NCBI GenBank assembly: GCA_947467345.1
Contig: CANIHD010000008.1
Location: 62,001-126,000, forward strand
Origin: Alphaproteobacteria bacterium
GTDB taxonomy: Bacteria > Pseudomonadota > Alphaproteobacteria > Micropepsales > Micropepsaceae
Direction of reading: 5' to 3'
Length of the DNA stretch: 64,000 bases
Shown one piece after another: positions 3,509-44,120 of the stretch. The notes under the pieces were generated by a model. The model was not told the origin of the DNA and searched no databases. It was given only the letters and a program-made list of their open reading frames with translations. The stretch's first letter is position 1. Each line of letters begins with the position of its first letter. Both the position numbers and the translations under genes were made by a program.

Positions 3509-3872
3509 CGTCAGATGGTCGGATGGCCGCGGGGCGAAAGCCTCGAGGAAAGTCCGGGCTCCACGGAAACACGGTGCCGGATAACGTCCGGCGGGGGAAA
3601 CCCCAGGGAAAGCGCAACAGAAAACAAACCGCCGACGGGCCGAAAGGTCCGGGTAAGGGTGAAAAGGTGCGGTAAGAGCGCACCGCGTCTTCGGTAACGA
3701 GGACGGCACGGCAAGCCCCACCGGGAGCAAGACCAAATAGGGACGGTAGATGGCTCGTTTCCGAGTCACCGTCCGGGTAGGTCGCGCGAGGCGTCCGGCA
3801 ACGGGCGTCCCAGAGGAATGGCCATCCCTTCAGCAATGAAGGACAGAACCCGGCTTACAGACCGTCTGACGC
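3509..3872 (+). ncRNA. rnpB: RNase P RNA (bacterial class A)
   Basis: The catalytic RNA of RNase P, which removes 5' leaders from tRNA precursors. The sequence holds the universally conserved 5' block GAGGAAAGTCCGGGCTCC and the 3' block with GGACAGAACCCGGCTTACA. The ends CGTCAGATGGTC and GACCGTCTGACG are complementary and form the P1 helix, which sets the boundaries. The length of about 364 bases is usual for an alphaproteobacterial rnpB. A short T-rich stretch (GCATTTTTCT) follows and may be the terminator. The small open frames across this region are not genes. Confidence 0.97.
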
Positions 3873-3911
3873 ATTTTTCTGATTCGTTTTTGCACCTGCG
3901 AGATGCGCCCG

Positions 3912-7607: not shown

Positions 7608-9023
7608 GTGGGCAGCAACTTTCAGGGATTTCGCGGGATCGCGGCAGACAGCCGCGAAGTGAAGCCCGGATTCCTGTTCGCGGCTCTGCCCGGCACCAAA
7701 ACCAACGGCGCGCGCTTTATCGGCGAGGCGGTCAAGCGCGGCGCCACGGCGGTGCTCGGCGCGCCGGAAGCGGCGGCGGAAGCGCGTGCGGCAGGTGTGC
7801 GGTTCATTTCCGATTCCAATCCAAGGCTGCGGCTGGCGCATCTGGCGGCGGAGTTCTACGCCGTGCAGCCAGCAACTATTGCGGCGGTCACCGGCACCAA
7901 CGGAAAAACCTCGGTCGCATCATTCTTACGTCAAATCTGGACGGCGTTGGGACGGCCCGCATCGAGTCTCGGTACGCTCGGTATCGACGGGCCTTCCAGC
8001 CATGTTCCACTGTCTCATACGACGCCTGATCCGGTGGAGCTGCATGCTGCTCTCGCGCGGCTCGCCAAGGAAGGCGTGACCTGCCTCGCCATGGAAGCGT
8101 CCAGTCACGGGCTCGATCAATTCCGCCTCGACGGGGTTCGCATTGCCGCTGCGGGTTTCACCAACATCACCCGCGATCACATGGATTATCACGGTGGGTT
8201 TTCGCATTACCTTGCCGCGAAACTGCGTCTCTTCGAGGCGCTGGTGCGCGACGGAGGCGTTGCCGTGGTCAATGCCGATGCCGAGCATGCGGAGAATTTC
8301 ATCGCAGCCGCGACGCGCCGTGGATTGAAGCTTCTCACCGTTGGCGAGCGCGGCGACGCATTGCGTTTGGTGTCGCGCATACTCCATGCCGACGGGCAAG
8401 AAATGACCATCCGTCACGATGGCCATGACTACGCCATCCGTCTGCCGTTGGCGGGATTGTTTCAGGCGTCCAATGCATTGGTTGCCGCCGGCTTGGCAAT
8501 TGGGCTCGGCGATGCGCCGGCTAAGATATTCGCGGCACTGGAGAAATTGAAGGGCGCGCCGGGGCGCTTGGAATTGGTGGCGCGCGCTGGCAATGGCGCT
8601 GCGATTTACGTCGATTACGCCCATACACCCGATGCGATTGAAACGGTTCTTTCGGCGCTGCGTCCGCATGTTGCCGGGCGGCTGCATATTGTGTTTGGCG
8701 CCGGCGGCGATCGCGACCGCGGTAAGCGACCCCTTATGGCTGCTGCCGCCGCGCGATTGGCCGATGTTGTGATCGTCACCGACGATAATCCGCGTTCGGA
8801 AGTGCCGGCAGACATCCGCCGCGAAGTTCTTGCGGGTGCACCTGCTGCGCGCGAAATCGGTGACCGCGCCGAGGCGATCCGCGAAGCCGTCGCAGGGCTC
8901 AAAGAGGGCGATGCTTTGGTTATCGCCGGCAAGGGCCACGAAGAAGGTCAGATCGTTGGCGGCGAAACGCGCCCCTTCTCCGATCGCGCCGAAGCGATCA
9001 AAGCGGCTGGAGGCGCAGCATGA
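7608..9023 (+). CDS. murE: UDP-MurNAc-tripeptide synthetase (meso-diaminopimelate adding)
   Basis: MurE adds the third stem residue to UDP-MurNAc-L-Ala-D-Glu. Motifs are ADSREVKPGFLFAALPG at the N-terminus, the ATP-binding TGTNGKTS, the HTTPDP block and DDNPR, the DNPR signature for meso-diaminopimelate recognition. The start is uncertain. The frame has no ATG near the N-terminus, only TTG at 7596 and GTG at 7608; I prefer GTG 7608 because a GGA lies seven bases upstream. The protein would be 471 residues. The stop overlaps murF by four bases. Confidence 0.95.
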   Translation: MGSNFQGFRGIAADSREVKPGFLFAALPGTKTNGARFIGEAVKRGATAVLGAPEAAAEARAAGVRFISDSNPRLRLAHLAAEFYAVQPATIAAVTGTNGKTSVASFLRQIWTALGRPASSLGTLGIDGPSSHVPLSHTTPDPVELHAALARLAKEGVTCLAMEASSHGLDQFRLDGVRIAAAGFTNITRDHMDYHGGFSHYLAAKLRLFEALVRDGGVAVVNADAEHAENFIAAATRRGLKLLTVGERGDALRLVSRILHADGQEMTIRHDGHDYAIRLPLAGLFQASNALVAAGLAIGLGDAPAKIFAALEKLKGAPGRLELVARAGNGAAIYVDYAHTPDAIETVLSALRPHVAGRLHIVFGAGGDRDRGKRPLMAAAAARLADVVIVTDDNPRSEVPADIRREVLAGAPAAREIGDRAEAIREAVAGLKEGDALVIAGKGHEEGQIVGGETRPFSDRAEAIKAAGGAA

Positions 9024-36342: not shown

Positions 36343-36768
36343 ATGCATGACTGGACGAATGCTGCTTTAGGCGGCGCCATGATCGGTTTGGCCAGCGCGG
36401 GGCTGTTGCTCTCCATCGGTCGCATTGCGGGCGTCAGCGGAATTCTCGCGAACGCGATCGGTGCCGTGCCTGGCCTTTGGCGCTGGGCATTTCTGGCGGG
36501 TCTCGTGGCATCGCCATTGTGGGCGCCGCTCGTGGGAGCGCCCTATGCGATTGCGCATTATCAGGGCGGGCCGTTTTTTCTTGTTGCGGCGGGGCTTTTG
36601 GTCGGCATCGGCACGCAGCTCGGTAACGGCTGCACCAGCGGACATGGCGTGTGCGGCATTGCGAATTTTTCGCTGCGCTCGCTGGTCGCCGCCGTCACAT
36701 TCATGATCGCTGCCATGATCACAGTTGCCTTCGTCCGTCATGTGCTGCCGGTTTTTACAGGTCTCTGA
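36343..36768 (+). CDS. YeeE/YedE-family sulfur-compound transporter, first half
   Basis: A 141-residue membrane protein with four hydrophobic helices and the family signature GNGCTSGHGVCGIANFS, whose Cys residues are conserved in YeeE/YedE proteins (thiosulfate uptake in known members; the related PmpA is tied to sulfur metabolism). It forms a pair with the next gene, starting two bases later, each giving half of what is a longer single chain in other bacteria. The gene begins 43 bases after matB and may be cotranscribed. The exact substrate is not shown by the sequence. Confidence 0.88.
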   Translation: MHDWTNAALGGAMIGLASAGLLLSIGRIAGVSGILANAIGAVPGLWRWAFLAGLVASPLWAPLVGAPYAIAHYQGGPFFLVAAGLLVGIGTQLGNGCTSGHGVCGIANFSLRSLVAAVTFMIAAMITVAFVRHVLPVFTGL

Positions 36769-36769
36769 C

Positions 36770-37219
36770 ATGCGCGAGATCGCCGGCCTCGTTCTCGCCG
36801 CCCTGTTCGGCCTTGTCTTCGGCCTCGGTCTGGTCGTGTCGCAGATGACCGACCCGGCGCGCATCATCGCTTTCCTCGATGTGCTGGGTGATTGGAATCC
36901 GTCGCTGCTGTTCGTGATGGTGAGTGCGGTCGTTGTTGCGGCTCCGGCGTTTTGGTTGGCGCGGCACAGCCACACGCATCACGCTTTGCTGGGTGACGAT
37001 TTCCAGCTTCCGCCCAACCGCACCAAGATCGACAGTTCTCTGATCGTAGGCGCCGCCATATTCGGCGTGGGTTGGGGGCTGGCCGGCCTATGCCCAGGCC
37101 CGGCCTTGGCATTGCTCGGCACCATCGACATCGGTGCGCTTCTATTTGTGCCGGCGCTGATTTTTGGGGCTCTAACGACGCGTTTCATACGCGCGCGCAT
37201 GACGGCAAAATCAATTTGA
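36770..37219 (+). CDS. YeeE/YedE-family partner (DUF6691), second half
   Basis: A 149-residue membrane protein with four helices; the second repeat ends with GWGLAGLCPGPALALLG, which parallels the GCTSGHG motif of its partner and includes the conserved Cys. The DPARIIAFLDVLGDWNPSL stretch is characteristic of this family (PmpB-like). I use ATG 36770, directly after the preceding stop. The pair probably forms one channel for a small sulfur species. It is convergent with the GtrA gene, 11 bases away. Confidence 0.88.
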   Translation: MREIAGLVLAALFGLVFGLGLVVSQMTDPARIIAFLDVLGDWNPSLLFVMVSAVVVAAPAFWLARHSHTHHALLGDDFQLPPNRTKIDSSLIVGAAIFGVGWGLAGLCPGPALALLGTIDIGALLFVPALIFGALTTRFIRARMTAKSI

Positions 37220-37230
37220 CGCGTGAAGCT

Positions 37231-37656
37231 TTATTTGGCGTCGCTTTTGCCGCCGTCCGGAATAAAGATGAAACGCACTGCCGCGAGATAGTTGAACGCT
37301 AGCGCTGCGATAGCGGCGCATGCGACCGCGAAGAACACGCCCCAAAGCGTAGGCGGAAAGAATTGCAGCAACACATAATAGACGGCGTAATTGATAAGCG
37401 CGCCAAGAGTTGTGGACGCCAAATAGGTTATCCAGCCATTGGCGTAGCGCGTCTTCGAGCGCCCCTCGAAGGTCCAAATCTGGTGCAGAAAATAGGTGGC
37501 GAAACTCGCCACCAAAAACGCCGGCACGCGCGCGACTTCAGGCGATATCTGGCCGGTGCTCACTTGCAGCACGGTCAGGCCGGAATCGATCCCAAATCCG
37601 ATTCCGCCAACCATGGAATAGCGAAACAGCCGTTGTTTAAGCAGCCACGCGATCAT
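37231..37656 (-). CDS. GtrA-family membrane protein (polyprenyl-linked sugar translocation)
   Basis: A 141-residue protein with four transmembrane helices: FRYSMVGGIGFGIDSGLTVL, the second near VARVPAFLVASFATYFLHQIW, then NYAVYYVLLQFF and FNYLAAVRFIF. This is the GtrA pattern; such proteins are thought to flip or assist undecaprenyl-phosphate-linked sugars. ATG 37656 overlaps the stop of the upstream GT2 gene (ATGA), so it is the third gene of a GT39-GT2-GtrA operon. It remains intact although the two genes before it are interrupted. Confidence 0.88.
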   Translation of the reverse strand: MIAWLLKQRLFRYSMVGGIGFGIDSGLTVLQVSTGQISPEVARVPAFLVASFATYFLHQIWTFEGRSKTRYANGWITYLASTTLGALINYAVYYVLLQFFPPTLWGVFFAVACAAIAALAFNYLAAVRFIFIPDGGKSDAK

Positions 37657-38648
37657 TCGCGCCGCGCTTTTCCCGCCTTCGGGCCTTCGAAAGAGAGATA
37701 GGCAAGGCGCCGCACTTCTCTGCGGCCATGCGTGACCGTATCGAGGATTAATCCGGACGCGATCGAGAGCATGGCCATAAGCGTGAGGCCAACGCAGGCA
37801 ATGGCCGTCGGCAGGCGTGGGACGAGGCCGGTTTGGTAATAGGTGAGGGCAAGCGGAACGGCGAGGATGATCGCAACGAGCGCGAAGACACCGCCGACAA
37901 GAGAAAAGAATAGAGCGGGACGTTCCTGACGAAACATCGACAACATGGTCATGAGGATGCACCAGCCATCATGATAGGTCCGCAATTTGCTGACAGAGCC
38001 TTCGCCGCGTTCGGCATAAGGCGTTACGATTTCGCCGACCGGCATGCGCAGCGCCAAGGCATGAACGGAAATTTCCGTTTCGATTTCGAACCCGCTGGAA
38101 AGCGAAGGGAAGGTTTTCACAAAGCGCCGCGTGAACACGCGATGGCCGCTCAATATGTCGCTGAAGGCACGTCCGAACATTCAGGCCAGAAAGCTTGTGA
38201 ACAGCGCGTTGCCAAACCGGTGTCCCGCCCGATATGCGGCTGCCGCTTCGCTCTTGCGGCACCCGACGACCATGTCCACGCATTGCTCGGTCGCCATGGC
38301 AATCATCGCTTGCGCGGAACCCGGATCGTAAGTGGCGTCGCCGTCCGCCATAATATAAATATCGGCTTCGATGTCGGCGAACATGCGCCGCACGACATTG
38401 CCTTTTCCCTGGCGAGTTTCGGTTCGCACAATGGCGCCCGCGGCCGCCGCCCGCTCACGCGACGCATCGCGGGAATTATTGTCGTAGAGGTAAATGTCTG
38501 CGGTCGGCAGGGCCTCGCGGAAACCCTTCACCGTCTGTGCGATGGCCGCCTCTTCGTTGTAACAGGGAAGGAGCACGGCGATGCGCAACGTCTGAGGGGA
38601 CAACTCTGTCATGCTTGTATAGGCCTGCTGTTGTGCGTGCATATCCAT
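37653..38648 (-). pseudogene. GT2 glycosyltransferase (polyprenyl-phosphate sugar synthase type), interrupted by an in-frame TGA
   Basis: Two collinear pieces in the same frame form one GT2 enzyme. The N-terminal piece (38648-38184) has RIAVLLPCYNEEAAIAQTV and the DXD region IYIMADGDATYDP. The C-terminal piece (38180-37653) has DILSGHRVFTRRFV, GFEIETEISVHAL, SKLRTYHDGW and two membrane helices. A single TGA at 38183-38181 separates them, followed at once by ATG. Without it the frame is 331 codons, typical of dolichyl-phosphate-mannose-synthase-like enzymes. It is probably a nonsense mutation (or sequence error); stop-restart translation of two half-proteins is conceivable. The enzyme would load a sugar onto undecaprenyl phosphate for the adjacent GT39. 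Confidence 0.85.
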
Positions 38649-38672
38649 GGAGAACCTATACGGGAATCCGGA

Positions 38673-40322
38673 CTATTCGGCGGTAGCGCCAAGTGTCGCT
38701 GCCTTAGCAGGAAAATTAATCTGGCGAAGCATTCGCATGTTCGGCGTTTGCGGGGTAAGGGTCCGGTATATCGTCGTTAATCCCGGGTCCCCGACATGCG
38801 GTTCCTCGGCAATCTCGCGAAAGCCGGAGCCCGGAAGGCCTAACCCTGCCCGTAATTGGTCACTATGTTCGAAGCCCGTTTGATAGGGCTGAGTCACGAG
38901 GATCACTCCTGCGGCATTCAAATTCTTCACCGCTTGAAGCACGGCCGCGGGATCCGAATATTTCAATGCGTAGCGACGTCCCATGAAATCGCTCTCGGCC
39001 AGGAACTCCGAACTCCGCACCACGTAGATGTGCTTTCCGGGATCGCGTATGGCGATTTCAGCAATGGTGGCGCCTTCCGCTGAGGTCGATCCGTCGATGA
39101 TCCAAACCTCGGGGCTGCCGTCTTTGACGACTTCCTCGGCGGCGATATCGAGTTTCAAATTAGGCTTCGCGTGAGGTTCCGCGAGATACAGCAACGAAGG
39201 ATAGGCGGCGCCCGCGATCAGAACCGCTAAGACGCCCCGGCGCGCAGTATTCGAAGAAAAGCTGCTCATCCAAGCATAGCAAGCGGCGAGTCCAAACACC
39301 GCGAGCACGATCAACGCCGGAAGTGTCGGCGCCACATAGCGGTTGGCCAGATCCGCCGGCACGATCATTTGAAACAACAATGTTGCGGCGATCAGGGCTA
39401 AGCATGAGGCGGCGGCTTCCCAACGCGCGCTATAGTCGCGGCGCGTTGACCAAGACCACCACACACCTGCGAGCGCGAGAAGGATCGCCACAGGACCGAC
39501 AGCCTCAAGCGCAAAAACGGGATTGGCTTGCAACGCACTCCAGGCATAAGCGAGGCCTGGTTTGAAATTGAATCCGTCCGCCGAAATTCCCGTCGTTACG
39601 ACATACCAGGGCGTGACGAGCAGAAGGGCCGCGGCAAGGCCGAGATAGGTGTACTTGTTCGCCAGCAATTTCCATTGGCCGGTGAACGCGATGTGAAGAA
39701 GCGGGAAGAGCGCTATCAGCCAGCCATTTCCCTTGATGAGAACGGCGAAGCCAGCCAAAGCGGCCACAAGAAGGGCGCGCAACGCATTTGGTTTTTTGCT
39801 GAAATAAACCCATGCGGCAGAAGCTGCCAGGAGCGCCGCCGTCACCGGCTGATCAAGCAGGAAATATTGCCCCGACCAAATCACCATCGGTAGGCTTGTG
39901 TACCAAGGCCCCGCCAGAATGGCCGCGAGTGGACCGAAGAAGCGCAAGGTGATCGCGGCAATCGCGATGACCGGCAGCGTGGAAACGAGAATGTTGAGGA
40001 TGAGCGCGACGGGCGGTGTTGCGGGAAAGACCAAGAATAGAAGCCCGAAAATTCCGTAATAGGCGGGCGGCTAGTGCCCAATCGCCAATTTCGGATAGTG
40101 AAGATAGTAATTGGTGGCGAATTCCATCGGATGCTTTCCGAGGCCAGTGAGGAAATAGTCTCGGAAGAATACGGAATTGAGGAAATGCGACGGCTCGTCG
40201 GGATTGTTGAAGCCCGCGTGAAGCGAACCGAATAAAGCCGTGCTCGACACAGTTAATGCAACCGCAAGCCCGTAAGCGAGTGCAATTGGCCATTGGCGTC
40301 GGAAACATTGACCAAGCGGCAT
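38673..40322 (-). pseudogene. GT39-type membrane glycosyltransferase, interrupted by an in-frame TAG
   Basis: From ATG 40322 the frame encodes a signal-anchor helix and NNPDEPSHFLNS, with the acidic residues expected at the active site of PMT/ArnT-like enzymes. It then reads YPKLAIGH, TAG (40073-40071), and continues in the same frame with PPAYYGIFGLL and a long polytopic part to 38673. In related proteins this place reads GHWPP, so the stop is most simply a TGG (Trp) to TAG change. The whole is 549 positions with about ten or more helices. A downstream restart would lack the DE motif, so activity is probably lost. It is the first gene of the GT39-GT2-GtrA operon. Confidence 0.85.
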
Positions 40323-40413: not shown

Positions 40414-40593
40414 CTAATCTTCGCGCTTTTTGCCTTCGAGGTCTTGCTGCTCTTTTTCGCGAAGCGCGGCGCTTAATTTGGATACGCGCTGCGGCGTGCC
40501 GAATTTGGTGCGGTTCTCTATTGCGCGCGCGTCTTTCTCAGCCCGCATTTTGCCTTTTCGTACGCCGCGCAAATTAACGATATCGGCGCTCAC
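40414..40593 (-). CDS. DUF4169 family small protein
   Basis: A 59-residue, strongly charged protein beginning SADIVNLRGVRKGKMRAEKD and rich in Lys, Arg and Glu, predicted largely helical. The N-terminal DIVNLR...RK pattern and the ENR.KFG motif match DUF4169, which in Alphaproteobacteria lies near fumC and an RHH protein. The start is GTG 40593, inside the GST stop (GTGA overlap), with AGG a few bases upstream. The function is unknown. Confidence 0.75.
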   Translation of the reverse strand: MSADIVNLRGVRKGKMRAEKDARAIENRTKFGTPQRVSKLSAALREKEQQDLEGKKRED

Positions 40594-41195
40594 ATCCTGT
40601 CTTTCGCCTTCGCCGCCGAATAGGCCGGCCGCGCGGTGATGCGCGCAATGTAGGATTTGAACGGCTCGGTGTCGGGCAATAATTTTGTCGTAATGAGGAA
40701 CGGCATGCTGCCTCCCAAAACAATATCGGCGGCGGAAAATTTGTTCCCCAAGAGGAACTGGTTCTTCGAAACAATATTCCCGATATGTCCGATAACCTCG
40801 TCGAATGGGCCCCAACCGAACGCGCCGTATTTATGGCCCATGTTGGTGTATTTCGCGGTGAGCGCGGGCTCGAAGACGCCGGTGGTATAGGAAAGCCAGG
40901 AGAGATAGGGACCGCGCAACGGATCGCCGATCTTTGGGCCCAAATCGGTTTCGGGAAATAGATCGGTCAAGAACAGCGCAATTGCCGGCGTCTCGAAAAT
41001 CGGCACGCCGTTATGAATGATGGCGGGAACTTTGGCGTGCGGATGAATATTGCGATAGGCCGGGCCTTCGGATTCACCGGTGCCGTCGCCACGTCGAATG
41101 GATACGATCTTTCGATCGTACGGAACGCCCAATTCTTCCAGAAGCCACAGGATACGAAACGAGCGCGATCTTGGTGCGTGATAAAATGTCAGCAT
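40590..41195 (-). CDS. glutathione S-transferase family protein
   Basis: A 201-residue GST: thioredoxin-like N-terminal domain (LTFYHAPRSRSFRILWLLEE, then HPHAKVPAIIHNGVPIFETPAI, which carries the cis-Pro and the glutathione-binding ETPAI) and a helical C-terminal domain with NQFLLGNKFSAADIVLGG. Such enzymes conjugate or reduce with glutathione; the substrate is unknown. It sits between the RHH_4 gene (10 bases upstream) and DUF4169 (overlapping), an insertion in what is usually a DUF4169-RHH pair. Confidence 0.9.
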   Translation of the reverse strand: MLTFYHAPRSRSFRILWLLEELGVPYDRKIVSIRRGDGTGESEGPAYRNIHPHAKVPAIIHNGVPIFETPAIALFLTDLFPETDLGPKIGDPLRGPYLSWLSYTTGVFEPALTAKYTNMGHKYGAFGWGPFDEVIGHIGNIVSKNQFLLGNKFSAADIVLGGSMPFLITTKLLPDTEPFKSYIARITARPAYSAAKAKDRM

Positions 41196-43620: not shown

Positions 43621-43791
43621 GAGATAGGTGGGGAGCTTCTGTTGCCCCGCGCTCCGAAGGATCACATTTGGGGTCGCGCCGTCGAGCAGAGATAGGTGGG
43701 GAGCTTCTGTTGCCCGGCGCTCCGAAGGATCACATTTGGGGTCGCGCCGTCGAGCAGAGATAGGTGGGGAGCTTCTGTTGCCCGGCGCTCC
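43621..43791. repeat. 2.5 tandem copies of a 68-bp unit at the ssrA 3' end
   Basis: Copies start at 43621, 43689 and 43757. The first two are full length and differ by one base (C or G at unit position 28); the third stops after 35 bases at 43791. Each unit starts GAGATAGGTGGGGAGCTTCT and contains GGAGC/GCTCC arms. The partial copy overlaps the terminal hairpin of ssrA on the minus strand, so the array is a tandem duplication of the ssrA 3' end plus about 33 bases downstream of it. Not CRISPR: there are no spacers. Confidence 0.92.
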
Positions 43792-44087
43792 CCGTGCCGC
43801 GCTTGCTTAACTTAATTAAGCAGCGAGGGCCATTTCGTTGTCGTTGGCACCTATACAGACAGCCCGATAACGGCGGATACCATACCGAGCGAAAAGTCCA
43901 CCTTTACACGTCCGTCGATCCTATTTCGCCCCCACAAATGCCCATCCGGACGAAGCCTGAATGGGCATATGGTGGAGGCGCCGGGTACCGCCCCCGGGTC
44001 CGATCCGCTTATTACGTGGCCGTTTATCGCCATAGTTCACGGCGGACCGAAATCCGCCGCGGACACCCCCAATATAGGGATTGGGGG
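43766..44087 (-). ncRNA. ssrA: circularly permuted two-piece tmRNA
   Basis: tmRNA rescues stalled ribosomes. On the minus strand the acceptor piece comes first (44087 to 43970): T-arm CGGGGGCGGTACCCGG, then CGCCTCCACCA. A 36-base intervening segment (43969-43934) with an ATGCCCAT/ATGGGCAT hairpin follows, then the coding piece starting GGGGGCGAAATAGGATCGAC. GGGGGCG (43933-43927) pairs with CGCCTCC to rebuild the seven-pair acceptor stem, including the G3-U70 pair that specifies alanine. The tag reading frame is ANDNEMALAA (43848-43816, with stop), the stop lying in a GCTTAA/TTAAGC hairpin. The last hairpin (GGGGAGC/GCTCCCC, 43793-43766) sets the approximate 3' end. This permuted order is typical of Alphaproteobacteria. 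Confidence 0.95.
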
Positions 44088-44091
44088 TAAA

Positions 44092-44120
44092 TAAGAAAGG
44101 CGCGCGGGTTGGGACGCCAA
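44092..44120 (-). promoter_or_regulatory. probable ssrA promoter
   Basis: On the minus strand TTGGCG (44120-44115) and TCTTAT (44097-44092) are 17 bases apart and would start transcription near 44087, at the CCCCCAAT/ATTGGGGG stem that begins the acceptor piece. It lies in the intergenic region shared with thyA. The match to consensus is moderate. Confidence 0.45.

Follow-up and report, generated by a model that had tools for sequence, protein, structure and literature searches.

The window, a 64,000-nucleotide stretch of an alphaproteobacterial genome of the family Micropepsaceae, carries three consecutive genes for sugar transfer on its reverse strand, two of which are interrupted by an in-frame stop codon. 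The first (38673–40322, −) encodes a GT39-type (PMT_2, GT-C) membrane glycosyltransferase, recognized by PF13231 (1.7e-6) when the stop is read as X. Its frame of 549 residues holds a sole internal stop, a TAG at codon 84 (40071–40073, −) that lies within an xxWPPxYY motif; a scan of the genome's contigs with the part of GT39 downstream of this stop returned no relative. The second gene (37653–38648, −) encodes a GT2 protein of the GtrB-like polyprenyl-phosphate sugar transferase type (PF00535, 2.3e-14), which weakly matches the dolichol-phosphate mannose synthase 5mlz (6.6e-5). It is also broken exactly once, by a TGA (38181–38183, −) that is codon 144 when numbering starts at the second Met; ATG follows directly. 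The third gene (37231–37656, −) encodes a GtrA-like membrane protein (PF04138, 63.6 bits, 2.4e-17, above the cut-off), the start of which overlaps the stop of GT2 as ATGA. This overlap suggests that GT2 and GtrA form one transcription unit. Translation bears out the initial annotation on the basic layout of the locus: one stop in each enzyme gene, each frame open over its remainder, and an intact GtrA gene behind the two.

Read with X at the stops, both enzyme genes give the expected Pfam domains (PF13231, PMT_2, and PF00535, Glycos_transf_2). By hexamer composition, the short N-terminus of GT39 scores 0.18 per codon, and the remaining parts of both frames are coding-like at 0.40–0.45 per codon (genome median, 0.46). 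The genes are bordered on the left by YeeE1 and YeeE2 (36343–37219, +) and on the right by a small gene that we take to be DUF4169-like (40414–40600, −). Elsewhere, the window contains an RNase P RNA at 3511–3873 and a two-piece (permuted) alphaproteobacterial tmRNA at 43763–44102 (−) that ARAGORN did not report.

By sequence resemblance, the three genes are a GtrABC-like cassette (GT-C, GT2 and GtrA). They comprise a small membrane protein of the GtrA family, a GT2 gene beside gtrA, here interrupted, and a third, variable polytopic transferase; this third slot is occupied by the PF13231 protein in the window and by unrelated membrane proteins in relatives. In gtrABC systems, GtrA is a flippase, GtrB a bactoprenol glucosyltransferase and GtrC a variable component (PMC3688519). 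In the predicted pathway of the window, the GtrB-like GT2 would load a sugar on polyprenyl phosphate, GtrA would flip the polyprenyl-phosphate sugar and the GT39 GT-C enzyme would transfer the sugar outside. The predicted role of the cassette is surface glycosylation; its target, whether lipid A, O-antigen or other, lies beyond the reach of sequence. The cassette is like the O-antigen glucosylation operons of Salmonella and Shigella in having three genes, the conserved GtrA and GtrB and a variable membrane transferase. It differs from them in its GT39-type GT-C protein, its alphaproteobacterial host and its gene order (GT-C, GT2, GtrA), in the interruption of two genes of a single operon, and in having no identified phage remnant.

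The TAG in GT39 had been proposed to replace the family tryptophan of GHWPP, which holds for part of the family. When relatives are aligned, the stop column contains Trp in the two nearest, L039 and L004 (36–38% and 27–28% identical to the window GT39, respectively), but Tyr in most others; the replaced residue is likely, although not certain, to have been tryptophan. The column of the GT2 stop is unconserved among about 100 homologues, which have Arg, Gln, Lys, Trp, Gly, Ser or hydrophobic residues there, and as judged from this alignment the stop removes no motif residue. Both genes show a hallmark of pseudogenes, in that a stop interrupts the frame at a position where intact homologues carry a sense codon. 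GT39-type enzymes rely on an acidic motif located in their first outer loop. In the window protein, PDE at residues 41–43 precedes the stop at 84 and most membrane segments lie behind it. Similarly, the DGD motif of GT2 (90–92) precedes the stop at 144, whereas the SGHR segment and hydrophobic C-terminus follow it, and the PF00535 match (13–163) spans residue 144, so that the protein is split inside its GT-A domain. Neither half of GT39 or GT2 would keep all its catalytic parts, and both enzymes have probably lost their activity.

The order GT-C, GT2, GtrA is found with intact genes in many genomes of the wider family. Operons of the same family (for example, L122, L123, L125 and L129) share the window's gene order, have a GT2 about 55% identical to that of the window and encode a homologous GtrA. 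They differ in being intact and in their upstream membrane protein of 515–540 amino acids, which has no recognizable kinship to the window GT39 by tblastn and gave no Pfam match in the two cases tested. An operon of a membrane protein of about 530 amino acids, GT2 and GtrA is conserved at L122, L123, L125, L126, L127, L129, L131, L132 and L133, and this membrane protein may represent an as yet unnamed GT-C family that takes the place of GtrC. The closest GT2 sequences are those of Sphingomonadales (L134–L213), up to 69% identical to the window GT2; they differ from it in setting, since neither a GT39 nor a GtrA homologue was detected next to them. In a GT2 tree built from nearest hits only, the window sequence falls in a Sphingomonadales group (support 95/92), apart from the GT2 clades of its own family, on a long branch (0.65); given this sampling and branch length, the donor is unproven. 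The grouping favours acquisition over vertical descent.

The flanks of the cassette are preserved in a genome of the same genus (G004), which keeps the order UvrD, acyl-CoA synthetase, YeeE1, YeeE2, DUF4169-like gene, RHH, FumC, SspB and ThyA, and from which the cassette is absent. There, 44 nt separate the end of YeeE2 (L231:8470) from the DUF4169-like gene (8514–8681), which is 52% identical to its counterpart in the window. GST, RHH, FumC, SspB and ThyA are collinear in two further genomes (G006 and G003) as well. A close GT2 is missing from all six same-genus genomes, of which G006 alone has a distant GT39 (28%). Together with the tree, this arrangement indicates that the cassette was probably acquired horizontally, inserting between YeeE2 and the DUF4169-like gene; a biased choice of nearest hits, or loss in the sister genomes, is a possible alternative, and the empty site in G004 could reflect a loss there. 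Composition leaves acquisition unproven, because the GC content of the cassette (0.556–0.591) differs little from the window mean (0.604), being slightly lower, and that of the right flank is lower still. Around the cassette we found just short, imperfect pairs of direct or inverted repeats, so that no insertion mechanism can be named, and its borders carry no mobile genes.

The best reading, and one that we consider probable, is that the locus is a recent pseudo-operon: a gtr-like operon that was acquired and is now at an early stage of decay, with both enzyme genes cut by nonsense mutations. The lineage would have gained the cassette horizontally before decay began; loss of the first enzyme would then have freed the second to decay, and the non-catalytic GtrA would not yet have been struck. 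Neither GT39 nor GT2 contains frameshifts or deletions, so the decay, if real, is very recent. The initial annotation had proposed the recent loss of a surface or lipid modification. Loss of function in a cooperating sugar-transfer operon is the part best supported, both enzyme genes being cut, whereas what was lost was probably an acquired accessory cassette, absent from the same site in a sister species, and not a function of long standing. Moreover, contig C9 carries a second set (L038:7469–10065), in which the intact gene of a GT2–GtrA fusion (377 amino acids) overlaps by 4 bases with an intact GT39 gene (488 amino acids) directly downstream. The loss of the cassette would be cheap because of this second set; the cassette may be dispensable, with the cell keeping a similar pathway through C9, and polyprenyl-sugar chemistry would not necessarily be gone from the cell.

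Alternatively, one or both stops could be consensus or strain-mixture errors, the genes being intact in the organism, which we regard as unlikely. The assembly is a 25-contig draft, probably metagenome-derived; each gene has a single base-sized change without any other lesion, and the assembly contains more single-stop genes. We gauged its pseudogene load with a codon-model scan for single stops over 432 kb (about 329 genes) and with family searches. The scan gave 39 same-frame stop candidates, most of which, judged by eye, looked like the ends of neighbouring genes. Four genes proved to be cut by a single stop: GT39, GT2, a TonB-dependent receptor with a TAG between plug and barrel (C1:107987–107989, in L106) and a small DUF6949 membrane protein with a TAG that its Pfam match spans (C2:58479–58481, in L114). 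Two more TonB receptors are broken, one by a TGA (L234; C9, near 77757) and one by two TAA codons ten codons apart (L235; C12, near 94.1–94.2 kb), bringing the TonB barrel matches with in-frame stops to 3 of 20 (C1, C9 and C12). Errors should fall anywhere, yet there is no internal stop in 39 ABC-transporter matches, six other GT2 genes or two other PMT_2 genes of the assembly, and the broken genes elsewhere seemingly fall among accessory surface functions. It is also improbable, at usual error rates, that substitution errors would strike two adjacent genes; by our own arithmetic, four cut genes placed at random would include two neighbours in about 3–4% of cases, a figure that is post hoc and based on small numbers. 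In addition, the window GT2 carries changes at 8 of the 112 columns conserved to 95% or more, a higher count than in any other of 100 sequences (the next have 6, 5 and 5); this excess may point to relaxed constraint, although the lineage of the window GT2 is poorly sampled. The rarity of such a neighbouring pair by chance and the leading position of GT2 in conserved-column changes favour linked decay over two unrelated errors, within the limits of a small, post hoc test. A wider proposition, that nonsense mutations are switching off surface functions together in this lineage (the sugar cassette along with several TonB receptors) and sparing its core genes, for instance in response to phage pressure or a shift in niche, is quite doubtful.

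It is very improbable that full-length enzymes arise by recoding or readthrough of the stops, whether through a suppressor tRNA, through decoding of TGA or TAG as an amino acid or through programmed readthrough. Such recoding would fit the open, coding-like frames on both sides of each stop and the residues seen in relatives, where Trp is common across the family at the position of the GT39 stop and is among the various residues at that of the GT2 stop. However, those relatives use sense codons at both places, and TAG and TGA are regular gene ends here (of 329 gene-like frames in 432 kb, 87 end in TAG and 136 in TGA). The suppressor tRNAs that the initial annotation had suggested looking for are missing from the 37 tRNAs found in the genome, none of which has the anticodon CTA or TCA, and a search for tRNA-Sec gave tRNA-Ser(tga) as its only match over the cut-off. 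This absence is strong evidence, although not absolute, because the list includes no Ala or Ile tRNA. Barely credible is the suggestion that translation restarts at the ATG directly after the GT2 stop and that the resulting two half-proteins assemble into an enzyme: the split falls within the GT-A domain, none of about 100 GT2 relatives is split at this place, the partner GT39 is cut too, with a downstream half that lacks PDE, and in both proteins the acidic motif precedes the stop and other required parts follow it.

The gtr operons of Salmonella are horizontally acquired, and three GtrC products contain premature stops (Davies and co-workers, PMC3688519); one gtr family has internal deletions in gtrB, and the genomes of that family all carry a second gtr operon (PMC3688519). 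Premature stops in acquired gtr operons are therefore already known in Salmonella, and the event described here is of the same kind, in a different bacterial class. The main use of the finding is a correction of annotation, with two pseudogenes in place of four short genes. As we read it, the locus would be an early-decay snapshot of an acquired surface-glycosylation operon, with an empty site in a sister genome, both enzymes cut and the rest intact, and a further case of the gain and loss of a gtr-like cassette outside the enterobacteria.
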